Below are positions 736-12,446 of a DNA stretch of 64,000 nt, piece after piece. A program made the translations under genes and the position numbers. The notes below the pieces were generated by a model. That model saw nothing but the letters and a program-made list of their open reading frames with translations. It was not told where the DNA came from and searched no databases. Each line of letters starts with the position of its first letter. The first letter of the stretch is position 1. The DNA is from Armatimonadota bacterium (GTDB lineage: Bacteria > Armatimonadota > HRBIN16), in the NCBI GenBank assembly GCA_026003195.1, contig BPGU01000001.1:915398-979397 (forward strand), in the 5' to 3' direction.

Positions 736-851
736 ATCTGGTACCTCTATTGGCATCCCGAACGGTACGACTGGTCGACAGAGCTGGTTGAGGCAGGCGC
801 TGGCGAATGTGTCCATGTGCTGGTGAGCAACTTCGGCGCGATTGAGGATGA

Positions 852-1832
852 TTAGCCTGCGCTTGCGTCCTTGCCCTCAACAGCGTGGGGGAGCGTTAAC
901 AGGCTGCCGTTTCGCAACCTCGCACCTCTTGCCCAGTCGCTTGCGTTCATGCGGGGACGGCTTTCGGGTTGCACCTCCAGAAGCTGTAGCACCGTGCTCT
1001 CGCCACACGCCACAACGAGGGATTGCCTCTCGACGCGCAGCACCGTACCGGGGGGCTGGCTGGTGTGTTCTTCTGTGGGCAGGCACCTCCACACCTTCAC
1101 CCACTTGCCATTCCAGAAGAAGCCGGCGCCCGGTTTGGGAGACATCGCCCGCACGCGACACCACGTGCGCTGGGCGGTATCGTCCCAGTGGATGAAGCCG
1201 TCTTCGCGAGTGATGGGTGGGGCGTAGGTGGCAAGGGAGTGGTTTTGTGGTCGGGGAGACACCGTCCCCTGCTCCAGGGCACGCAGGGTTTCTATCAGCA
1301 GTTCTGCGCCCAGCTCTGCCAGCTTGACCTCTAAGGTCCCTGCGTCGTCTTCGGGCAGGATGGGGCAGGCTCGCTGGGAGAGGATGGGTCCCGTATCCAG
1401 TGTGGGTTCCATCTGCATGATGGTGACCCCCGTTTCGGTCTCGCCGTTCAGCAGTGCGTGCTGGATAGGAGCGGCGCCGCGATATTTGGGCAACAGCGAA
1501 GCGTGTACGTTGATTGCCCATCCGCTGGAGGGCATTTCCAGTAACGCTTTGGGCAGAATCTGCCCGAACGCCGCCACGACGAGCACATGGGGAGCAAGGG
1601 CGCGCGCCTGTTCGACGAACTCCGCACGACGTACCTTTTCCGGCGTCCAGACGGTAAGCCCCCGCTGCTCGGCGACACGACGTACCGGGGTAGGTTGCAG
1701 ACGTAGATGCCTGCCGGCAGGTCGGTCGGGCTGGGTGACCACGACCGGCAGTTCATACCCTGCCCGAAGCAGGGCAAGCAAAGAGGGCACGGCGAACTCG
1801 CTCGTGCCGAAAAAGAGCACTCGTCGCATCAT
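852..1832 (-). CDS. fmt: Methionyl-tRNA formyltransferase
   Basis: Transfers a formyl group from 10-formyl-THF to methionyl-tRNA for translation initiation. The 326-residue product has the usual family length. It begins MMRRVLFFGTSEFAVPSLLAL and carries the hallmark SLLPKYRGAAPIQ segment of the formyltransferase fold near residues 109-121, then a C-terminal OB-like tRNA-binding part. I chose the ATG at 1832 because it overlaps the def stop in an ATGA arrangement, which implies translational coupling. The frame remains open further upstream, but that part is antisense-like sequence inside def. Downstream of the phyH and def genes, so probably the last gene of that transcript. Confidence 0.95.
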   Translation of the reverse strand: MMRRVLFFGTSEFAVPSLLALLRAGYELPVVVTQPDRPAGRHLRLQPTPVRRVAEQRGLTVWTPEKVRRAEFVEQARALAPHVLVVAAFGQILPKALLEMPSSGWAINVHASLLPKYRGAAPIQHALLNGETETGVTIMQMEPTLDTGPILSQRACPILPEDDAGTLEVKLAELGAELLIETLRALEQGTVSPRPQNHSLATYAPPITREDGFIHWDDTAQRTWCRVRAMSPKPGAGFFWNGKWVKVWRCLPTEEHTSQPPGTVLRVERQSLVVACGESTVLQLLEVQPESRPRMNASDWARGARLRNGSLLTLPHAVEGKDASAG

Positions 1833-2383
1833 TTGCCTACGGCAACCGCTTCCCGCTCTTCCTTTTCCTCCTCTGTTACCCAGCGGAGCGTGGCGGGGTC
1901 GGCACGGTCGATGAACAGAATGCCGTCCAGATGGTCTACCTCGTGCTGGATGACCCGCGCAGTCAGACCTTCCGCTTTGAACTTGATGGTCTTGCCCTGC
2001 AGGTTCACTGCTTTCACCCATATCGTTTGCGCGCGCCGCACATTGCCCATCAGCCCGGGCAGGGAAAGGCATCCCTCCGGTGGCTCTATCTGCTCGCCCG
2101 ACATTTTGAGGATGACGGGATTGATGAGTGCGTGCACCTGTGGGTTCTGTTCGTCGGACATATCGGTATAAAGGAGAAGCCGGATGGATACCCCCACCTG
2201 TGGCGCAGCGAGACCGATGCCGTTGGCGTCTGACATCGCCTTACGCATGAACGACACCAGCTGGCGTATCTCCGGCGTGATACGTTTGACCGGTTCTGCC
2301 ACCTGCCTCAGGATGGGGTCCGGGTATTTCACGATTGGGTCGCCTTCCGCTCGCGGAAAGGGCGGTAGTTCCATCGCCATCAT
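1829..2383 (-). CDS. def: Peptide deformylase
   Basis: Removes the N-formyl group from new proteins. All three metal-site motifs are present: GIGLAAPQVG (residues 55-64), EGCLS with the metal-binding Cys at about 105, and QHEVDHLDG with His147, Glu148 and His151. Several in-frame ATGs occur close together. I use the one at 2383 because a GGAGG lies seven bases upstream (2391-2395), whereas the ATG at 2389 is too close to it. The product is 184 residues. It is coupled to fmt by a 4-base overlap, the classic def-fmt pair, and starts 19 bases after the phyH stop. Confidence 0.95.
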   Translation of the reverse strand: MMAMELPPFPRAEGDPIVKYPDPILRQVAEPVKRITPEIRQLVSFMRKAMSDANGIGLAAPQVGVSIRLLLYTDMSDEQNPQVHALINPVILKMSGEQIEPPEGCLSLPGLMGNVRRAQTIWVKAVNLQGKTIKFKAEGLTARVIQHEVDHLDGILFIDRADPATLRWVTEEEKEEREAVAVGK

Positions 2384-2402
2384 CCACATACCTCCGCGAG
2401 TA

Positions 2403-3392
2403 TTATACCCTGTTTGCCACCGTTTGCACGCTCTCCATCGTACCATCCTCCATACCCATCATACGGGGAGGCACGCCAGTGTCACCCTCTGCAGGTTCCA
2501 GGAGATGTACCGGTGTGCCGAACCGGGGCGTAGCGTACGGCAGGTGTGTGCTACCACGCGCCAGAATGTGCAGGTAGTTCGCACTGTTGCCCTCGTACGG
2601 CTCGCCATGATTCCAAGGCACCCACGAGCGGGCATTGCAGTAGTGGCAAACATACGAGCGGCGGAAGCGGTCTGTCGTGCGGTTCGGGTAGGAGCGATGC
2701 AGGATGTGTCCATGGAAAAAGAGCACGTCGCCCGGCTGCATCGGCACGGGTATTGGGTCGGGATACTTGCGCACCACTTTGGTCAGGGTGTTCACCTCGT
2801 CGTCCAGATGGCTGACGTTCTGCACCCGGAACAGGTCTTCAAACACGCCCTCCGTGTGGACGAGACCGTAAGGATGGTCTGGTGGGTAGATGGGTTCGCA
2901 GTGGGAGCCGGGTATCACCCACAGGCAGCCATTTTGCTCGTCGGCGACATCCAGCGCCATCCACGCGCCGATGAGAGTGTCGGGATAGGTGGTGATATAG
3001 TAGGAATCCTGATGCCAGCCCTGTCCGCCCAAGCCTGGAGGGTTGAAAAAAAGCATACTTTGCAGGGCAAGCACGTCGGGACCGATTAACGCCTCCAGTA
3101 CATCCAGCACGCGCGGGTGTAGCAGTCCCCATTCCGCCGTCGCGTCGATGCGGTGCAGCTGGTGGATGCGCGTGTGCGTTTTGAAGACTGCCTCCAGCGG
3201 CGCCTTTTCGGACTGCTCCTGCATCGGCGTGGGCTGGCGACGGCTCTCCGCCCAGTCCAGCAGGCGTTGCACATCCTCTTTGGGGAGCAGTCCCTCTACC
3301 TTCAGGTAACCGTGCCTCTGGTAGTGCACATACTCTTCTACCTTCACGCGATACCTGTCCGGTCGCTCCGCTGCTTTGGGTATGTATGCCAT
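2403..3392 (-). CDS. Phytanoyl-CoA dioxygenase (PhyH) family protein
   Basis: A 329-residue Fe(II)/2-oxoglutarate dioxygenase of the PhyH fold. The iron-binding triad is visible: the HxD pair in GWHQDSYY (His127, Asp129) and the distal His in GHILHRSYPN (about His232). An Arg-Ser that would bind 2-oxoglutarate follows. The start at 3392 has GGAGG six bases upstream. The frame is open further upstream but lacks a ribosome site there. The substrate cannot be read from sequence. Bacterial relatives hydroxylate small molecules, and in this phylum many PhyH copies occur. It has its own promoter and lies ahead of def-fmt. Confidence 0.85.
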   Translation of the reverse strand: MAYIPKAAERPDRYRVKVEEYVHYQRHGYLKVEGLLPKEDVQRLLDWAESRRQPTPMQEQSEKAPLEAVFKTHTRIHQLHRIDATAEWGLLHPRVLDVLEALIGPDVLALQSMLFFNPPGLGGQGWHQDSYYITTYPDTLIGAWMALDVADEQNGCLWVIPGSHCEPIYPPDHPYGLVHTEGVFEDLFRVQNVSHLDDEVNTLTKVVRKYPDPIPVPMQPGDVLFFHGHILHRSYPNRTTDRFRRSYVCHYCNARSWVPWNHGEPYEGNSANYLHILARGSTHLPYATPRFGTPVHLLEPAEGDTGVPPRMMGMEDGTMESVQTVANRV

Positions 3393-3428
3393 CTTTTGCC
3401 TCCAGCGCGGTTCTTTAGCGTTGTTAAT

Positions 3429-3457
3429 AGTATAGTATAATCGGTGGGCAGATGCAA
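3429..3457 (-). promoter_or_regulatory. Promoter of phyH-def-fmt
   Basis: On the minus strand TTGCAT and TATACT are separated by exactly 17 bp. The predicted start is about 30 bases ahead of the PhyH ATG. Confidence 0.6.
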
Positions 3458-3508
3458 GGGAGTATTGCCGTCCGTCGTCCATGTTATCTCACAGGCAAAC
3501 CGTCAGCC

Positions 3509-3517
3509 GATCCCTCT
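3509..3517 (+). repeat. Target-site duplication, left copy
   Basis: GATCCCTCT directly abuts the left inverted repeat of the insertion sequence. An identical 9-mer abuts the right end at 4542-4550. Confidence 0.9.
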
Positions 3518-4541
3518 GAGGCTGTTCGAAAAATCGGTGAGTATCGGGTATAAAACATACTATGAAACACACACACTTCAGACAAACTACCCTCGCCACC
3601 ATACGGGTACGCACCATTTACAGCCTTGTCCTGCGCTTTTGCCAACTCCACCCTCTCCCCAAACGACGCGGACGACCCTGCAAATACTCCGAAGCCCTCA
3701 TCCTCACCCTCTGGCTGCTTGCCGTGCGCGAAAACGCCTCCTACCGACGCCTGCTTTTTGCGCTTGCCCCCGAAATCCTGCCCGACCACCCCCTGCCTGC
3801 CTTAGGCACGCTCGCCTACCGCTTGCAGCATCTTGCAGACAAACGCCTGCAACAACTGCTCCATTGGCTTGCCCAGCAGGGCATGGCGTCAGAGACACTG
3901 ACCTGTGAAACGCCGTGTGTGTTTGTGGATGGCACGGGCGTGGGATATGCCTCGCCGTTTTTCGCGCAGTATTTGCGAGGGGCACAGATACGTCAGCAGC
4001 GTTCGCATGTGAAGGTGGTGGCGTTGGTGTATTGGCAGGGGGGTCGGGCGTGGGTGATAGGGTTATCGTGTGGGGCGGCGTATGCGGATGAGGGGCGGCT
4101 GTTGGGGGAGTGGGTGGAGCGGTATGGTCGTGGTGGGTTGGGGTCTGGCACTTTGTTGGTGGGAGACAGGTTGTATGGGTATCGGGCGCGATTGTTGAAG
4201 CAGTTGGAGGAGGCGGGTTGGTTGCCTGTGGCGCGTGTGGAGGCAGGGTTGCATCAGCAGGTGCGTGCGGATGCGCGGTTGCGTGCGCGTTTGCGTGCGG
4301 AGGTGTATGGTTGGGCGTTGGGGGAGCGTTATCGGATAGAGCAGGTGTTTGGGAGCGTGAAGAGTGCGTATGGGAGCGTGTGGCGAGCGCGTTCGTGGGA
4401 GGGTGCGCGGGTATGGGTGTGGGGGATGTTTGTGCTATGGAACATGGTGGGTTTGGTGCGTGTGCTTGGAGATGGTTCTGATGGTTTTATTGTATGTTGT
4501 GTGTGGGTGAGGGGGGGCTGGGTGATTTTTCGAACACCCTC
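3518..4541 (+). mobile_element. Complete insertion sequence, 1,024 bp, with 18-bp imperfect terminal inverted repeats
   Basis: Left end GAGGCTGTTCGAAAAATC (3518-3535) and the reverse complement of the right end (4524-4541) differ at one base. Both ends are flanked by the same 9-bp direct repeat GATCCCTCT, so the limits are certain and the insertion is recent enough to keep a perfect duplication. The element holds one transposase. The 9-bp duplication and about 1-kb size fit IS4/IS5-superfamily elements, but I do not assign a family. The first half of the + strand is C-rich and the second half strongly G-rich. Confidence 0.93.
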
Positions 4542-4599
4542 GATCCCTCTTGACAACCTGTGCACTCTGTTTTATGCTATATCCAGCATTCTACCGTAA
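3562..4599 (+). CDS. DDE transposase of the insertion sequence
   Basis: Catalyses movement of the element. The acidic triad can be placed: Asp in FVDGTGVGY (about residue 122), Asp in LVGDRLYGYR (about 203) and Glu in RIEQVFGSVK, the last with the R-x3-E-x6-K spacing seen in the IS4/IS5 superfamily. A helix-turn-helix-like N-terminal part (KRRGRPCKYSEALI) precedes it. The frame has no stop codon inside the element: it runs through the right inverted repeat at 4541 and ends at a TAA at 4597 in host DNA, adding about 19 foreign residues. No good ribosome site precedes the ATG. Confidence 0.88.
   Translation: MKHTHFRQTTLATIRVRTIYSLVLRFCQLHPLPKRRGRPCKYSEALILTLWLLAVRENASYRRLLFALAPEILPDHPLPALGTLAYRLQHLADKRLQQLLHWLAQQGMASETLTCETPCVFVDGTGVGYASPFFAQYLRGAQIRQQRSHVKVVALVYWQGGRAWVIGLSCGAAYADEGRLLGEWVERYGRGGLGSGTLLVGDRLYGYRARLLKQLEEAGWLPVARVEAGLHQQVRADARLRARLRAEVYGWALGERYRIEQVFGSVKSAYGSVWRARSWEGARVWVWGMFVLWNMVGLVRVLGDGSDGFIVCCVWVRGGWVIFRTPSIPLDNLCTLFYAISSILP
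4542..4550 (+). repeat. Target-site duplication, right copy
   Basis: Second copy of GATCCCTCT. Its last T is also the first T of the TTGACA -35 box of the next gene, so the duplication restored the box. Confidence 0.9.
4550..4578 (+). promoter_or_regulatory. Promoter of the LuxR-HTH gene
   Basis: Perfect TTGACA, 17 bp, then TATGCT. The same promoter with the same spacing and the shared string CTTGACAACC is found at 10679-10707 in front of a decayed copy of the gene. Confidence 0.75.
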
Positions 4600-4611: not shown

Positions 4612-5004
4612 ATGGCTACCGTCTGGCTGATATGTCCTGACGCAGCGTTGCGAGAACGGCTGTTGCGGTGCTTACGTGATGGGGAGCAGGTGACGGTATG
4701 CGTGAAGCCGTGCGTTGCGGATGCGGTGGTGGTAGTGCCTCCTGTGTTGACGCCGGCTCAGGTAGAGACATTGCAGGCGTATGTGGACACGGGCAGTGCG
4801 CGTGAGGCGGCGAAGCGCAGGTGCTGTTCGGAGCAGACGGTTCGGCGTCATCTGGCGGCGGCGCGAGCGCGGGTGAAGGCGCAGAACGTGGCTCAGCTGG
4901 TGCACGTGGCGTGGATGTTGGGAGTATTAACCGCTCCGTCTAGTACCAATTGGGTACAAAAATGGCAAAAATTGACTATTGACACGGGGGGGGGGACAGA
5001 GTAG
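4612..5004 (+). CDS. Small transcription regulator with LuxR-type helix-turn-helix
   Basis: A 130-residue protein. The first 45 residues are an unrecognised valine-rich segment. They are followed by a LuxR/GerE-like DNA-binding helix-turn-helix from about LTPAQVETLQ to VRRHLAAARARVKAQN (residues 46-92), where ARE-AAKRRCCSEQTVRRH matches the recognition helix. There is no receiver or ligand domain. AGAGG lies eight bases before the ATG. Its last residues are encoded across the G tract of the next promoter, so G-tract length changes would alter its C-terminus. Immediately upstream of the envelope cassette, so a local regulator is the natural inference. A deleted copy lies at about 10730-10830. 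Confidence 0.7.
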   Translation: MATVWLICPDAALRERLLRCLRDGEQVTVCVKPCVADAVVVVPPVLTPAQVETLQAYVDTGSAREAAKRRCCSEQTVRRHLAAARARVKAQNVAQLVHVAWMLGVLTAPSSTNWVQKWQKLTIDTGGGTE

Positions 5005-5007
5005 AAT
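4979..5007 (+). promoter_or_regulatory. Promoter of the envelope cassette with a G10 tract in the spacer
   Basis: TTGACA (4979-4984) and TAGAAT (5002-5007) are separated by exactly 17 bp, and 10 of those bases are one uninterrupted run of G (4986-4995). Slippage in such a tract would move the spacer away from 17 and change promoter strength, a known phase-variation mechanism in other bacteria. Whether it happens here is inference. Confidence 0.7.
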
Positions 5008-5044
5008 AGAGGTAGAAAACTCTAAAAAGGAGGTGTCAGTATCC

Positions 5045-5467
5045 ATGTCTCGATGGAGCAGTCGCAACATGTTCGTAAGCGGAGCCGTGGTTGCTGTGGG
5101 AGCTTTATCTTTAGCCCTGTTGTCAAGCGTTGTAGCAGCAAGAGACCCTATAGCTACTCCTCCGCCTCCACGAACAATTGAACAAAGTTTCTGTTCAAAC
5201 AACTACTTTACCTGTCGTGACATTGCGTGTGCTGATGCGATAGGAGGCGAGGTTCGGCTACCGGGTTATGGAGCTGCTGTCCGGGCGGGTAGTGGGAAGT
5301 TCTCTAGCACTCCCACCAAAATGTACACCTGTGAGCCGAGCTCCTTGTGGAAGCATACCTGCACGGAACGTCCTGTTCAGTGTGGCGAGTATGCGTTCTT
5401 CACTTCTTCAGGCTGTGCAGGAGCGCCCATCTTCACGCGTCCGGGGTACCAAATCTCGTGCCGGTAG
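5045..5467 (+). CDS. Small secreted cysteine-rich protein
   Basis: Not a family I recognise. The 140-residue product has a clear Sec signal: MSRWSSRNMF, then a hydrophobic segment about residues 9-30 ending VVAARD. After a proline-rich linker (IATPPPPRT) the mature domain of about 90 residues contains eight cysteines (FCSNN, TCRD, ACAD, YTCE, HTCTE, VQCGE, GCAG, SC), enough for four disulfides. The ATG at 5045 follows AAGGAGG with a slightly long spacing. First gene after the G-tract promoter, six bases before the next gene. I infer an exported, disulfide-stabilised surface or signalling protein. Confidence 0.6.
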   Translation: MSRWSSRNMFVSGAVVAVGALSLALLSSVVAARDPIATPPPPRTIEQSFCSNNYFTCRDIACADAIGGEVRLPGYGAAVRAGSGKFSSTPTKMYTCEPSSLWKHTCTERPVQCGEYAFFTSSGCAGAPIFTRPGYQISCR

Positions 5468-5473
5468 TGCCAG

Positions 5474-6460
5474 ATGCGAAGGTGCTTTACGCTCTCGATC
5501 TGCCTGGTATGGATATGGGTGCGGGGCGGTTGGGCTTCGCCCGTACCCTCTCCTGCTTTGCTCCTTGAAGCGTGGCAACAACTAGATACGGATTTCCAGA
5601 AGACTGTACGCTCGTACAAACTGGAGGGCATGGCCAGCAAAAAGCCGCACGAGGCGGACCTCCCCGCTAGCACGTTCAGATGGCGTGTCTGGCGCGATGG
5701 GGAGCGGTTTTTGTGGGAATATACAGTCAACGACACGCTCAGCGGTGGAAGAAGATATGCTTACAGCTACGATGGGGTTCGCTACGACTGCTACGTTGGC
5801 CCCTCCGCCCAAGGCTTCATTTACAAGACCGTAGAGGATCTGCCCCCATGCGAAAATGCGTTTACTGGTTTGTATCCCTTTGATATTCCCCATCTCTGGC
5901 AAAAGCCGCTGGCTGGTGGCAACTGGCAGCAAGTTCTACCTTACTATGTAACATTACTTCAGAATGTTTCTGCTTTGCACGTCAGCAGAGACGAGCATGC
6001 TCAGTCTTACATTCTTCTTCTTTCGCAGGAGGGCAAACGCAGGTTGGGATGGTTACCCGATGAGGTGCACTTTCGAGTGGAACGGGGAAGGTTCGTGCCA
6101 GTGCGCTTTATCCTGCGAGACAAAGCAGGTGGACGGTTGACGCAGACGGTGTTTGAAATCACTTCTGCACAGTGGCATAACGAGTGCTGGCTTCCTTCCG
6201 GTTACCGTTGTACATGGGTGGATGTGGCAAGCCGCCGGGTATTCATGGAAATGAATGCCACCATTCGGATGAGCGACATAAACCAACCTATTTCTGCGGC
6301 GCATTTCCGAGTTAACTTCCCAGCGGGAACACTTGTCACAGAGCAAGGAGGACAGGAATGGGTTGTTCGCGGCGTATCGATTTGGAATCTCTGGTGGGTT
6401 GTTCCTGTAATCCTTGTTGTGATGGTGGTGTTCTGGCTAGCAAAGCGATTACGTCGGTAA
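5474..6460 (+). CDS. Exported protein with C-terminal membrane anchor, function unknown
   Basis: 328 residues. The N-terminus has a signal peptide (about residues 1-22, ending GGWAS). The C-terminus has one strong transmembrane helix (NLWWVVPVILVVMVVFWLA) followed by KRLRR, so most of the protein faces outwards. The extracytoplasmic part is rich in beta-strand-like segments (FRWRVWRDGERFLWEY, RRYAYSYDGVRYD), which loosely resembles LolA-like lipoprotein-sorting folds. That resemblance is weak and I do not claim it. Three cysteines are scattered in the domain. Part of the same transcript as the Cys-rich gene and the DUF1573-like gene. Confidence 0.55.
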   Translation: MRRCFTLSICLVWIWVRGGWASPVPSPALLLEAWQQLDTDFQKTVRSYKLEGMASKKPHEADLPASTFRWRVWRDGERFLWEYTVNDTLSGGRRYAYSYDGVRYDCYVGPSAQGFIYKTVEDLPPCENAFTGLYPFDIPHLWQKPLAGGNWQQVLPYYVTLLQNVSALHVSRDEHAQSYILLLSQEGKRRLGWLPDEVHFRVERGRFVPVRFILRDKAGGRLTQTVFEITSAQWHNECWLPSGYRCTWVDVASRRVFMEMNATIRMSDINQPISAAHFRVNFPAGTLVTEQGGQEWVVRGVSIWNLWWVVPVILVVMVVFWLAKRLRR

Positions 6461-6475
6461 AGGAAGAAGATCGCG

Positions 6476-7501
6476 ATGTCCGCGGCAAGGAATGAGCGAA
6501 GGTGGCTGGTGTGGGGGTGTGTTTTAGGACTGATCGTACTCACATTACTAGCAGTTCTGTATAGCCATTCCTTACCTCCTGCTTTCAGGAGAGTGTGGTC
6601 GCTGCAGTTTGTCCCCTCTCGGCTTGTGCTGCCTGCGGATCTGCCATCCATTCACGAGACAAGCGTTTTGTTATGCAATCGTGGGACCAAGGATGAGCAC
6701 ATCCGGCTTGGCTCTTGTTGCGGAGTGAACATACAGGGAGAACTAGAACGATACGTGGGAAAGGGGCATTGTGTCAGGATACCGTTGAGCGTTGAGGTAA
6801 GATCGCCGGGGGTGTATCGCGGGGCAATATTCGTTTACGTGCCAGGCGTGCAGTCTCCTGTGACAGCCTTGCCTATTATGGCACAAGCGTATGAGAGCGT
6901 CTTTGCATCCACAGATACCAGACGTTCGCTACATTTGCCCGCACTGGTTCGCAAAGCCCCTGGTGATGCGAGTGGGGAGGCGTGCGTCACACTGTCTGTT
7001 CATAGCGGTTTTGGGATAGAGCGCATTGTATCTCCAGCAGACTGGCTATCGGTAAGTTGGCGCAAGCGGGATACGGTGGTCGACGTTTGCGCAAAGGCGT
7101 TGCCATCGGCACCTGAGGGAAAGTTCAACCTTGACCTCTTACTGATTTACAGATGTGGCAAGCGCTCTGGACGTGACTACATCAGGATTTTCGGAGAGGT
7201 AGTGTCTTTAGTATACGTCCACCCAAGCAGGCTGTCTTTCGGTGTCGTGTCGTTGCGGCAACAGCGACCGGCGTCGAAAGAGGTACAGATCATCCTGCGT
7301 GGTAGTAGAGGCAAACCGTTGAGTTTTAGGGCAACTTTCGCTGGTTGCACCACACGAGCGAAACGGTTAAAGCCGGGGGTATATGTTGTGGAGATCCAGT
7401 TCATTCCTAAACGATTGGGGGAGATACGAGGATATGTGCAGTGTCGTCAAGGAGACGACATCATCTACCTACTGCCCATAAGCGCGCTAGTACAACCATA
7501 G
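6476..7501 (+). CDS. Membrane-anchored protein with DUF1573-like (Ig/MSP-type) domains
   Basis: 341 residues. One N-terminal transmembrane segment (WGCVLGLIVLTLLAVLY, about residues 13-29) is followed by an extracytoplasmic region. Near the end, VHPSRLSFGVVSL followed by EVQIILRGSRGKPLSF is the pattern of DUF1573-type beta-sandwich domains, and the first part (FVPSRLVLPADLPSIHETSVLLCNRG) looks like another copy. Such domains are usually protein- or glycan-binding modules in the periplasm. AGGAAGAAG precedes the ATG. Sixteen bases after the previous gene and ten before the next, so clearly one operon. Confidence 0.6.
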   Translation: MSAARNERRWLVWGCVLGLIVLTLLAVLYSHSLPPAFRRVWSLQFVPSRLVLPADLPSIHETSVLLCNRGTKDEHIRLGSCCGVNIQGELERYVGKGHCVRIPLSVEVRSPGVYRGAIFVYVPGVQSPVTALPIMAQAYESVFASTDTRRSLHLPALVRKAPGDASGEACVTLSVHSGFGIERIVSPADWLSVSWRKRDTVVDVCAKALPSAPEGKFNLDLLLIYRCGKRSGRDYIRIFGEVVSLVYVHPSRLSFGVVSLRQQRPASKEVQIILRGSRGKPLSFRATFAGCTTRAKRLKPGVYVVEIQFIPKRLGEIRGYVQCRQGDDIIYLLPISALVQP

Positions 7502-7510
7502 GAGAGGCAG

Positions 7511-9451
7511 ATGGGTCGGGCGTTAGTCGCATTGATGTTGGTGGCAGTTCAGGTGTTATGGCTGTTTCCTACGTCTGGCGCTGCACAGTGGCTAGCCAGA
7601 TACACGGTTGGCAATGCCGAACAGCTCTACAGTAGTTACGGAACGTACCTTGCTTTGTGGGGCTGCTGGGCGCTGTTAGCATGGCGCATCCTCTCACTTC
7701 GTGTCGATACTCCTGCAGCGGGTTGCTTTCGGCGTGTGCTGACAGCATTCCCGTTGCTGCTAATATGGGATGGTTTGTTTTCAAGACATCCTTCTTACCC
7801 TGTGGAAGCAGCAAATGGGTTGCTTGCTTGTTGGGTCAGTGCAGCTGTTGTTTCCCTGCTTGCTACCAAGGTCCCACGCCACATCACCGATGGGTGCATC
7901 CTGATGGTGCTCGCCTCGGAATCACTATTTGCCCTACACTCATGGGATACCGAACGCCGTATCATGGGTGGTTTTTCGAGCCCTAACCTCTTCTACCCAC
8001 TGATGTTGTATGGAATGCTATGCAGCACTGAGTACGTCCTCCGCGGGCAGCAAGTGTATGACCTGGTATGGGGCATACTGGGGTGCTTGTTTGCTACAGC
8101 GCTTGGCGCCTCTGGAAGCCGTGGTGGTATGCTGGCAGGTATCGTCGCGGTATGCTGGATGATGTACAAGGTGCTGTCACGTGCTCGTTCCCATAACGAG
8201 GTTCCATTGGTGCGGTGGAAAGTGGTTACCCTGCTGGCTCTCTTAGTGCCGTTGGCAATCGGCTGGCATCTTCGCCAAGAGCAGGTAGGAGTAACCACCA
8301 TCCTGGATCGCTCGGTACACGCACGCCCCATTTTATGGTGGACAGGTCTACGGGTCGCCTGGGCATCCCATGGGCTGGGATGTGGCATTGCTAACATGAG
8401 TGCTCAGGAACAGTTGAATGACCTGCGGACGATGGTGCTGGGCTCGGGAAACATGGAGCCTAAGAACTTGCTTGTAGCGATGGTAGCCATATACGGAATG
8501 CCCGGATTATGGTACGTTCTATCTCTTATTGCGAAATCTTGGCGATTTTTTGGGCAGCAAAACGATGAACAACAATTAGCTGGCACCGCCATGTTGCTTG
8601 CACTGCTGGTTGCTGGTGCAGCGGACACCCCCATACTTATTGCCGAACGCTTAGCGCCTACCTTCTTGTGGTTGCAATGGATGATGATCAGCGTAAGCCC
8701 GCGTCCATCCATAGTAGCAGGTTTGGGCTTTGTGCGGAGTCGCACGTTGCGGTACAGAGTAGTGTTTACAGCTCTTACCGCAGTGTTGCTAACGATAGGT
8801 AGCTTTGTGGGCTATACTTACCGGGAGGCAAGGAGTTACCAGCCCTCCTTGCAGCGACTGCGAACGCTCTCAACGACCCCGTTGTCAGCCTATCCGCGCA
8901 CATTGGTTCACCTGCTTATTGAGCGCGAAGACAAGCGGTTTTGGGATCATGCGGGTATTGACTGGCGCGCCATGCACAGGGCGCTTCGTACCAACATTCG
9001 CACACTGCAGTTTGCACAAGGCGGAAGCACTATCACCCAACAGATGGTGCGTAGTATGTTGCTGGACCCCCGCTTCGCCAAAAGCAAGAGCTTGACGCGA
9101 AAAGCAATAGAACTATGGCTAGCTACTTGGGCGGAGCGTGAGCTGGGCAAGCAGAAAATACTGGAACTGTACTTGCAGTATGCATTCCGGTTGGACCTGC
9201 CTCCGGAGCGAATAGGTTTCGGGGCAATAGCTCGATACTACTTTGGCAAGCCCATTGGTCAGCTCTCACCAGATGAATGTGCGGTGTTGGTAGGCTGGCT
9301 CTCAGCACCCCCAGTAAAAGGTATAGATTGGTATCGTACGATTGCTTTGCGGAACGCAACGTTGTCTGGACTTGACCGTGAGGCATCCCCGTATTATGGA
9401 CAGCCTGTGCGGATACGGGTAGGATGCTTTGCGCAAAAGCAGAGGGAGTAA
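7511..9451 (+). CDS. Fusion of an O-antigen ligase/polymerase-like membrane domain with a GT51 peptidoglycan transglycosylase
   Basis: 646 residues. Residues 1-435 are polytopic, with about ten hydrophobic segments, and carry O-antigen ligase/Wzy signatures: GGFSSPNLFYPL (153-164), GASGSRGGMLAG (199-210) and HARPILWWTGL...GLGCG (270-292). EPKNLL (316-321) sits where ligases usually have a His-Asn pair. Residues 440-640 are a complete GT51 transglycosylase: EREDKRFWDHAGID (471-484, catalytic Glu473), QGGSTITQQ (503-511), TRKAIELWLA...ERELGK and GAIARYYFGK (571-580). No transpeptidase domain follows. The GGAGAGG site and tight spacing place it in the cassette. Role inferred: makes or ligates a lipid-linked glycan at the membrane. 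Confidence 0.85.
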   Translation: MGRALVALMLVAVQVLWLFPTSGAAQWLARYTVGNAEQLYSSYGTYLALWGCWALLAWRILSLRVDTPAAGCFRRVLTAFPLLLIWDGLFSRHPSYPVEAANGLLACWVSAAVVSLLATKVPRHITDGCILMVLASESLFALHSWDTERRIMGGFSSPNLFYPLMLYGMLCSTEYVLRGQQVYDLVWGILGCLFATALGASGSRGGMLAGIVAVCWMMYKVLSRARSHNEVPLVRWKVVTLLALLVPLAIGWHLRQEQVGVTTILDRSVHARPILWWTGLRVAWASHGLGCGIANMSAQEQLNDLRTMVLGSGNMEPKNLLVAMVAIYGMPGLWYVLSLIAKSWRFFGQQNDEQQLAGTAMLLALLVAGAADTPILIAERLAPTFLWLQWMMISVSPRPSIVAGLGFVRSRTLRYRVVFTALTAVLLTIGSFVGYTYREARSYQPSLQRLRTLSTTPLSAYPRTLVHLLIEREDKRFWDHAGIDWRAMHRALRTNIRTLQFAQGGSTITQQMVRSMLLDPRFAKSKSLTRKAIELWLATWAERELGKQKILELYLQYAFRLDLPPERIGFGAIARYYFGKPIGQLSPDECAVLVGWLSAPPVKGIDWYRTIALRNATLSGLDREASPYYGQPVRIRVGCFAQKQRE

Positions 9452-9452
9452 C

Positions 9453-10484
9453 ATGAGGCGATTTACTCTCGATACCACTATGATGGCAATAGTCGTTATG
9501 ACGCTCCTGGCACACTATCTTGTACACTACACTGCCCAAAAGCAGGTTCCTAAGAAGGAATATCTGTGGCGAGCGATTGTTTGTGTGACAGAACACTCGA
9601 CCTCCCCAAGACTCACCGCGGTATGGTGGGTCCAGGCCGGGTTAAGAGAGGCAGACGTGGTGCAAATACCTGTACAAGCACTTATTGGATATCAAACAGC
9701 AGAGAAGACGCCAACTTTAGCGTCGTTATACCAAACACCACACTTTGTAAACTATTTGCGCCGCTTTACAAGATATGCGCTTGGCTTGCCTGCACCAAAG
9801 GTTATAGAGTGTCCATTAGAGGCTCTATTAGGCCATACTGTCGGGCAGGCTCCTGTGTCCTTCTTTATACCGGAAAATACAATGCTCGTTCTGGATCACA
9901 AGAGTGTCTTCTACGGGCGTGGAACACATCGTTTGAGCATATCGGAACTGCGTGAGCTGTGGAGTGGTTACTCCTTTTGGGGTGGTGAATGGGGAAGGTT
10001 GCAAAGGCAAAGGCTCATCCTGCAAACCATTGTGCATCTCACTGCCTCCAACGAGGAACTACCCGAGCCATTGCTGTGGCTTGCATATCTACGGTATTCT
10101 CAAGTGCACTACTTCACGGTGCCGGGCAGCCGAGGCAACAGCTGGATGGGGCCCCATGATGACGTTATCCGGATATCACCTGCGTCTTTCCAGGCAACGG
10201 CACGCCGTCTCAGAGAAAAAGACAAGCGTTCAGATGTGCGAGTGCGCTTGTGCTTTTCGCCAAAGGTTCCCTTAGCCACCCAGCAGCAAATCACCGAAGA
10301 GATTTTCGATATGGGATTCTCCGTGTACGTGGACGACGGATCTTCTGGATGTCGAACAGGATCGATACGTGCCATAGAGAACCTACCGGGAGATGTGAAA
10401 CAGCTGCAGGCAGTCGTGCAAAGGCACGCTCAATGGGGTGGCTACTGCCAGCAGGGAGCGGAGGTTCTTATCATGGTGCAGTAA
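9453..10484 (+). CDS. Divergent LytR-CpsA-Psr (LCP) family protein with LytR_C-like tail
   Basis: 343 residues. One N-terminal membrane helix (MMAIVVMTLLAHYLVHY, residues 10-26). The middle resembles LCP phosphotransferases that attach glycopolymers to peptidoglycan: SFFIPENTMLVLDHK, RGTHRLSISELRELWSGY, and GGEWGRLQRQRLIL (177-190), equivalent to the conserved D-x-R-x-x-RQ segment. The first LCP motif (an R-x-D and IPRD-like stretch) is eroded: here it reads DVVQIPVQAL. The tail (DVRVRLCFSPKVPLATQQQI to DMGFSVYVDDG) fits a LytR_C domain. AGAGGGAG precedes the ATG at 9453, one base after the previous stop. Last gene of the cassette. Confidence 0.65.
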   Translation: MRRFTLDTTMMAIVVMTLLAHYLVHYTAQKQVPKKEYLWRAIVCVTEHSTSPRLTAVWWVQAGLREADVVQIPVQALIGYQTAEKTPTLASLYQTPHFVNYLRRFTRYALGLPAPKVIECPLEALLGHTVGQAPVSFFIPENTMLVLDHKSVFYGRGTHRLSISELRELWSGYSFWGGEWGRLQRQRLILQTIVHLTASNEELPEPLLWLAYLRYSQVHYFTVPGSRGNSWMGPHDDVIRISPASFQATARRLREKDKRSDVRVRLCFSPKVPLATQQQITEEIFDMGFSVYVDDGSSGCRTGSIRAIENLPGDVKQLQAVVQRHAQWGGYCQQGAEVLIMVQ

Positions 10485-10514
10485 GCGCGCAGAGTAGCGC
10501 CGCAGCGCGTCGGC

Positions 10515-10557
10515 AAGATACCGTACCTCCTCGCCTACGCGTGTCATGGGAGAAACG
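10515..10557 (+). pseudogene. Remnant of the 3' end of a DUF1559 pilin-like gene
   Basis: CCTCGCCTACGCGTGTCATGG followed by an AAACGATAAA-like string is a diverged copy of 11408-11435, the end of the pilin-like gene there (encoding GTPRPRV and stop). It marks where a similar gene once ended, just after the cassette. The rest of 10485-10678 shows nothing I recognise. Confidence 0.5.
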
Positions 10558-10678
10558 ATAAAAACCCAAACTCGGGGGATAGAGGATGCAAGCGCTGCGG
10601 GAGAAGATAGTGTTTGTGTGGCAGAGGTAAGGTGTAGTCACCCAGCCACTTCCACTGGCAAACGTTAGGGGGGGCTCC

Positions 10679-10707
10679 TTGACAACCCATGTCCCTTGTT
10701 TTATGCT
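10679..10707 (+). promoter_or_regulatory. Duplicate of the LuxR-HTH gene promoter
   Basis: TTGACA, 17 bp, TATGCT, identical in boxes and spacing to 4550-4578. A GGCAAAC string lies 15 bases upstream. At the first locus the same string (3494-3500) lies 16 bases upstream once the insertion sequence is removed. Confidence 0.65.
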
Positions 10708-10729
10708 GGATGCAATCTTGCATGTGACC

Positions 10730-10830
10730 TGGCGGCGGCTTGTGCACAGCTGGTGCAGGGGGCGTGGGTATTGGACTTATTAACCGCTGCGTATAGCAAA
10801 AATTTACCAAAAAATGGCAAAAATATACTA
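10730..10830 (+). pseudogene. Internally deleted remnant of the LuxR-HTH gene
   Basis: After the duplicated promoter, CTGGCGGCGG jumps directly to CAGCTGGTGCA, GCGTGG, TATTAACCGCTGCGT and AAAATGGCAAAAAT. These strings match 4851-4860 and 4895-4970 of the intact gene in the same order. About 250 bases of the coding region are missing and an ATG is followed at once by TGA. Confidence 0.65.
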
Positions 10831-11423
10831 CGGTGTGTCTGAACAACCTCAAGCAGATAGGACAAGCCATAGTTATGTACCGACAGGATTGGGATGGCGC
10901 AGACCCGCAGAGAGGGGTGCGTCTGACCCTGGCGCAGTTGGGGCTTCCGCCCTGGGACACATGGTTTGGCTGCAACCCTCCGCAGGGATACACCGACCCG
11001 CTTTGCGCATATATCCAGAACAAGCAAGTGTGGTGGTGCCCCAGCCGACATGCCGACCCTCGTTGGGTAGATGCACCGGGGACAGTCAGCTCCTACAGCT
11101 TCGCCTGGATTGGCATCAAGCGTCCTTTTGAGGAAGCCATCGCACTACAGCCAGACCTACCATTGGTCATGTGCAAGTTCCACGACCCTGTCTGGTGGAG
11201 CTCCGAGCCCATTTTTGATAAGGACTACCGCCTCCTAGGCGTCTCGGCGGACGGAACGGTTCGGTGGTGGAGACGAACGACCTTGCGTCCTATCTTATGG
11301 ACACGTCCATGAGGCTTGCCACCGGCTGCGCCGACGGTGGGGTGGACTGGCGACTTCTCACTTGGTCCGTTCACGGATGAGTTCATCTTTCCACCGGCAG
11401 GAACGCCTCGCCCCCGCGTGTAA
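10831..11423 (+). pseudogene. Truncated DUF1559 (pilin-like, H-X9-DG) gene
   Basis: CLNNLKQIGQAIVMYRQD is the segment that follows the N-terminal prepilin helix in DUF1559 proteins. That helix and the cleavage site are absent, because the frame joins directly to the regulator remnant. The frame then encodes a normal pilin-like body (YIQNKQVWWCPSR, LLGVSADGTVRW) to a TGA at 11310. After it the same frame continues with GLPPAAPTVGWTGDF and ends GTPRPRV at 11423. An N-terminal deletion plus a premature stop makes it a pseudogene. Intact relatives are secreted, pseudopilin-like proteins common in Armatimonadetes and Planctomycetes. Confidence 0.7.
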
Positions 11424-11461
11424 TGGAAAAACGACAAAGCACAACAGATGGAGGGTAAGCG

Positions 11462-12446
11462 ATGGCGGTTAAGATTATCGGACCCGAGCTGCCAAATATC
11501 CCCTGGGAAGAGAAGCCCAAAGGCTATTCGGGCGTGATGTGGCGTTACAGCAAGAACCCGATTATCCCTCGTAACCTGCTGCCTACTTCCAACAGCATCT
11601 TCAACAGCGCGGTGGTGGCGTACGGCAGCGAGTTTCGCGGCGTCTTCCGCTGCGATGATACCCGTCGCTACATGCAGCTGCATGCGGGGCGCAGTCAGGA
11701 CGGCATCCACTGGGAAATTAACCCCGAGCGCATTCACTTCGTGGGCGAAGCCGCGCAGGAGCTGGGCTGGGAGTACGGCTACGACCCGCGCGTGGTGTGG
11801 ATTGAAGACCGCTACTGGGTGACCTGGTGCAACGGCTATCACGGACCCACCATCGGCGTGGCGTGGACACAGGATTTTGAGACCTTCTACCAGCTGGAGA
11901 ACGCCTTCCTGCCCTACAATCGCAACGGTGTGCTGTTCCCGCGCAAGATCAACGGCAAGTACGCCATGCTCAGCCGACCTAGCGATCGCGGGACATACTC
12001 CGTGGGGCGACATGTTCTACAGCGAAAGTCCTGACATGATACACTGGGGCTGCCATCGCTTTGTGATGGCGCCTGCGGGAGGCTGGCAGAGCACCAAAAT
12101 CGGCGCGGGTCCCGTGCCGATTGAGACCACCGAGGGCTGGCTGCTCATCTACCACGGCGTGCTCACCTCGTGCAACGGCTTCGTGTACAGCGCGGGAGCG
12201 GCGTTGCTGGACCTGGACAAGCCGTGGAAGGTGATTGCCCGCACGGCACCGTACATCATCTCGCCGCAGGAGCTGTACGAGTGCGTGGGCGACGTGCCCA
12301 ACGTGGTGTTCCCCTGCGCTGCGCTGGCGGACTCGGCGACGGGACGCATCGCGGTGTACTATGGCGCAGCGGATACGGTGACAGGGCTCGCCTTCTGCCA
12401 TGTGGAGGAGCTGGTGGAGTTCACGAAACAGAACTCGCTGGTGTAA
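11462..12446 (+). CDS. Glycoside hydrolase family 130 (beta-mannoside phosphorylase-like), frameshifted
   Basis: Two frames together make one GH130 protein. The first runs [12 protein letters not shown] through [17 protein letters not shown] to MLSRPSDRG. The second continues [19 protein letters not shown], then [19 protein letters not shown], a GH130 hallmark, to the stop at 12446. The switch is at GGG 11990-11992. Removing one G restores the frame, so a sequencing or assembly error is as likely as mutation. The family breaks beta-1,4-mannosides by phosphorolysis. GGAGGGTAAGCG precedes the ATG. It stands alone between the pilin remnant and a toxin-antitoxin pair. Confidence 0.85.

Follow-up and report, generated by a model that had tools for sequence, protein, structure and literature searches.

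The window analysed here is a 64,000-nucleotide stretch of an Armatimonadota genome, in which a single uninterrupted ATG frame at 7511–9451 on the forward strand encodes a protein of 646 amino acids, with an O-Lig/Wzy_C-like membrane half followed by a GT51 (Transgly) domain. The frame lies in a cassette of genes on the same strand, and the neighbours that recur in related cassettes are a secreted Cys-rich small protein, a LolA-fold protein, a DUF1573-like protein, a Wzy_C-like protein, a GT51 and a pseudopilin; individual cassettes need not carry every one of these members. The window cassette begins with a helix-turn-helix (HTH) gene at 4612–5004, GerE-like just under the cut-off, which belongs to the 5′ constant block of the cassettes. 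A secreted-looking Cys-rich small protein with eight Cys (5033–5467) and a LolA-fold protein for which a C-terminal transmembrane helix is predicted (5474–6460; AlphaFold pLDDT 82; Foldseek match to LolA 8v1k, E=2.3e-8) come next. The protein encoded at 6476–7501 had no Pfam match of its own and is described as DUF1573/ASH-like from its cassette position and the matches of its relatives: it was matched by neighbours in the L127, L128 and L169 cassettes (phmmer), and the L126 protein at the corresponding position matched PF07610 at 1.3e-10. Downstream of the fusion are a gene of unknown family at 9453–10484, which is comparable in size and position to genes of L122 and L123, and an H-X9-DG-type pseudopilin gene remnant at 10833–11312, in which the prepilin start is missing.

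Near the pseudopilin remnant, the interval 10544–11312 also holds a piece resembling the end of a constant-type GT51 gene (10592–10628) and an HTH tail (10744–10830), and these short pieces are perhaps a recombination scar. A transposase-like ORF (3562–4599) lies directly 5′ of the HTH gene, and the stretch 3440–4548, containing most of this ORF, is missing from the aligned position in G005, another genome of the genus. The cassette HTH block is also found in L226 and L227 ahead of other secreted-protein genes and without a fusion, so the HTH gene may regulate several cassettes. An anti-phage defence system was considered and rejected, as seven cassette proteins gave no match to the PADLOC defence models.

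Architecture of the fusion protein

The original prediction had described this frame as an O-antigen-ligase-like domain united with a complete GT51 domain, and Pfam, AlphaFold and Foldseek agree on this anatomy. The WaaL/Wzy_C-like membrane half spans residues 1–408 (7511–8734), the last transmembrane helix (residues 409–441 in the AlphaFold model; 8735–8833) connects it to the second domain, and GT51 occupies residues 454–601 (8870–9313). All motifs reported earlier were found, namely GASGSRGGMLAG, GGFSSPNLF, GLGCG and EPKNLL, and Glu473, QGGSTITQQ and YYFGK. The whole protein was predicted with a mean pLDDT of 89.1 and a pTM of 0.84, and the model recovered a WaaL-like and a GT51 fold; its 17 Foldseek matches in the PDB at E<=0.001 were all GT51 structures except WaaL 7TPG. 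Helix counting on the model would place the active sites of both halves outside the membrane.

The GT51 half matched Transgly (PF00912) with E=1.2e-38 and 132.7 bits against a cut-off of 27, and the PDB entry 3NB6 with E=1e-22 and, by fold, with E=1.9e-6 and TMt 0.78. Glu473 and Glu534 align with the catalytic Glu pair of the Aquifex enzyme, and both are present in the window protein together with GGSTITQQ; the L123 GT51 has lost its YFGK region. A complete GT51 domain, including the two catalytic Glu and the GGSTITQQ motif, is shared with the monofunctional and class A PBP glycosyltransferases, but the fusion has no transpeptidase domain (only about 45 residues follow GT51 at the C-terminus, with no Pfam match there) and carries a ligase-like multi-helix half instead of a single N-terminal anchor. 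The cassette GT51s also stand apart from those enzymes as a separate clade: all 21, fused or separate, grouped together with an SH-aLRT of 99 in a quick tree built from a short alignment.

Relationship of the membrane half to O-antigen ligase

In the membrane half, Wzy_C (PF04932) was matched at residues 193–333 with E=3.6e-6 and 27.3 bits, short of the curated 31.7-bit threshold, whereas six homologous fusions (two in L114, and those in L115, L117, L126 and L164) scored 59–74 bits, clearly above it. These scores of the related fusions place the membrane half in the Wzy_C superfamily, with the window copy as a divergent member. A profile of 21 sequences, made from membrane halves and stand-alone relatives, matched a single PDB entry by sequence, WaaL 7TPG (E=6.4e-11), and Foldseek matched the membrane half to the same structure with E=4e-5, probability 1.00 and TMt 0.58.

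With WaaL residues numbered by 7TPG chain index, Arg 191, Arg 265 and His 313 align with R204, R272 and K318 of the window protein. The two Und-PP-binding arginines of WaaL are thus both retained, and R150, R204, R255 and R272 are invariant in 21/21 sequences. The His at index 313 is the proposed catalytic residue, which activates the acceptor; the window protein has Lys at its position, as do most of the related sequences, and only L123, L131 and L168 among the 21 have His there. E316, as Glu or Asp, is kept two residues ahead of K318 in most of them. The usual His was therefore rightly reported as absent from the EPKNLL segment, and the catalytic position is altered, but the His is not merely missing, since a Lys substitutes for it within a largely conserved E/D-x-K/H motif.

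Since a search of the alignment for the catalytic His found Lys instead, we refrain from calling the membrane half an O-antigen ligase, although it resembles one and may function like one. The polytopic fold, the placement of the two Und-PP arginines and the loop bearing the catalytic residues are shared with WaaL (O-Lig), while the replacement of the catalytic His by Lys in most members, the fusion to GT51 and the setting within a Cys-rich/LolA/DUF1573 cassette are not. PEP_O_lig_1 (TIGR03097), a putative O-glycosylation ligase of exosortase systems, was matched weakly in L115 and L126, at 53–63 bits and far under its cut-off of 188, and no exosortase was recognised in the cassette stretches read. 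The SEDS polymerase RodA/FtsW and its PBP form a team of a membrane Und-PP enzyme and a cell-wall synthase, and by analogy the fusion may pair such an enzyme with a cell-wall synthase partner, although this partner is a GT51 and not a transpeptidase. A SEDS identity of the membrane half itself was rejected, as no SEDS family appeared in Pfam or among the Foldseek matches at E<=0.001.

Distribution of the fusion and probable exchange of the cassette

Fusions were found in 7/10 genomes of the genus (G000, G001, G002, G004 and G005, plus partial pieces in G007 and G009), a single genome having as many as four, and also in G036 and G230 from two other Armatimonadota families. The window protein is 100% identical in G005 and has diverged homologues in G004 (46%) and G001 (41%). 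Given this recurrence in several independent genomes of three families, and the identity with G005 in protein and in DNA over 4948–11604, a chance join or assembly error has a practically negligible probability and was rejected; the fusion is real. Its architecture is unusual, as had been proposed, with related fusions in Armatimonadota and none in the samples from other phyla. At E<=1e-65 no fusion was found in 289 Verrucomicrobiota, 299 Bacillota and 299 Pseudomonadota genomes or in 284 genomes from the phylum of Deltaproteobacteria bacterium UBA796 (about 1,170 genomes from four phyla), an absence that carries little weight since 3–4 candidates were scored per genome and the samples held no positive control. 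No plasmid record covered 80% of the L115 protein, and the matches in the scan of genome contigs were confined to the GT51 region. None of the open-access papers searched describes an O-antigen ligase/GT51 fusion, most of the subscription literature not being searchable, and the words 'fusion', 'fused' and 'GT51' are absent from PMC10920833.

The DNA match to G005 is perfect over 6,657 bp, from 4948, inside the HTH gene, to 11604, beyond the pseudopilin remnant. The stretch upstream of it (817–3439) is 94.8% identical to G005, and a second locus of the same two genomes is 92–93% identical, so that DNA flanking the match differs by 5–8% between the two species. A perfect match amid DNA of 92–95% identity fits a recent transfer of the whole cassette between species, and contamination seems an unlikely source because the flanks differ.

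Comparison of cassettes revealed a constant and a variable part. Among cassettes a, b and c of G005, the GT51 halves are 96–98% identical and the membrane halves 25–35%; between genomes, cassettes matched by type (b, c or d) are 87–93% identical in GT51 and 41–68% in the membrane half. Window-type cassettes of different genomes share only 49–55% and 32–42%, respectively, and form an older branch of their own. At the DNA level, a 5′ constant block in the HTH gene (about 500–690 bp, 90–95%) and a 3′ constant block of GT51 (524–604 bp, 95–98%) and pseudopilin (99% between cassettes b and c) enclose DNA without detectable similarity. The variable segment includes the Cys-rich, LolA-fold and ligase parts, which vary together, while GT51 is constant. 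The DNA flanking this locus is 92–93% identical between G000 and G005, so the GT51 copies of one genome resemble each other more closely than orthologous DNA of different species does, despite the older membrane types, and homogenisation within the genome is indicated. The contigs of G001 and G002 terminate inside constant blocks.

Possible function of the fusion protein

Our results raise the possibility, which we favour tentatively and put at somewhat less than even, that the fusion works as a two-headed enzyme of the envelope, combining a GT51 polymerase with an Und-PP-glycan ligase whose acceptor is encoded in the cassette. The enzymatic activity, substrate, acceptor and direction of transfer that we infer would be as follows. 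The GT51 half would extend an Und-PP-linked glycan, most simply from lipid II, and the O-Lig/Wzy_C-like half, its conserved arginines binding pyrophosphate, would move an Und-PP-linked glycan, possibly the product of GT51 itself, onto an acceptor. This acceptor would most likely be the secreted Cys-rich protein or a substrate of the LolA-fold and DUF1573-like partners. Since the Cys-rich and LolA-fold genes co-vary with the ligase and GT51 stays constant, a cassette-encoded acceptor leads over peptidoglycan itself, although neither an acceptor site nor a sequon was recognised. A narrower form of this proposal, in which a peptidoglycan-type glycan built on Und-PP is ligated to the secreted Cys-rich protein, and the flanks stay constant while acceptor and ligase are exchanged as one matched unit, is doubtful.

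The anatomy, the architecture and the altered His of the original prediction thus stand, and its suggestion that the fusion couples peptidoglycan synthesis to the transfer of another lipid-linked glycan is possible but not favoured over a different acceptor. Such LCP-like coupling, with the ligase half adding a second Und-PP-linked glycan to the nascent strand from GT51, would agree with the presence of both domains in a single chain and with the proximity of ligase and GT51 even where they are separate genes. It is nevertheless rather unlikely, as the ligase half co-varies with the Cys-rich and LolA-fold genes, and synthesis genes for a second lipid-linked glycan were not recognised beside the cassettes examined, for which ORF lists and no full annotation were used. 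With Lys in place of the catalytic His in the window protein and most others, the ligase half may have lost its activity or work by a different mechanism, which counts against the favoured reading. Together with the Wzy_C score below the cut-off, the substitution would suit a membrane half that transfers no glycan and serves as a scaffold or lipid-substrate site, placing GT51 within an envelope complex that includes the LolA-fold and DUF1573-like proteins. We hold this, too, to be unlikely: the four invariant arginines and the E/D-x-K/H motif kept in most of the 21 sequences would not have been preserved under functionless drift, and three members have His at that position. The pseudopilin that adjoins many cassettes, and the weak TIGR03097 matches, might instead point to a PglL/PilO-like O-oligosaccharyltransferase with this pilin as its substrate. 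That reading is quite improbable, given that the window cassette was apparently transferred recently although its pseudopilin lacks a prepilin start, and that several cassettes have no pilin in the stretch examined.

If the two-headed enzyme is correct, the union of two Und-PP enzymes, one ligase-type and one GT51-type, in a single chain would tie glycan polymerisation physically and directly to glycan transfer. A constant GT51, a variable ligase and the exchange of whole cassettes between species suggest a fast turnover of ligase specificity, and the function of the LolA-fold/DUF1573/Cys-rich loci of Armatimonadota becomes testable; no description of the cassette's function was found in the open-access literature searched, most subscription papers not being searchable.

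Related cassettes in other Armatimonadota

Ligase and GT51 are fused in L126, in L164 and in the genus of the window, and are encoded by separate nearby genes in L127, L128, L166, L167, L168 and L131, from three other families. The L169 and L170 cassettes have no GT51 within the stretch examined, so a neighbouring GT51 is not always needed by the ligase; this, like the lost YFGK region of the L123 GT51, speaks against the two-headed enzyme. DsbA/thioredoxin-like proteins adjoin the cassette in L166 and L131.

The separate GT51s often carry an Extensin-like C-terminal domain. This Extensin-like/M15-type domain was recognised by Pfam in L128 (7410–9665) and by eye from the sequence in L127 (8871–11081), L167 (6900–8828) and L168 (6663–8246), and the Extensin-type GT51s of L127, L128 and L167 have an additional hydrophobic N-terminal half. 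Another composite frame is found in L170, where 6081–8972 encodes 963 amino acids in which a middle part joins a Wzy_C-like half to a pseudopilin-like part.
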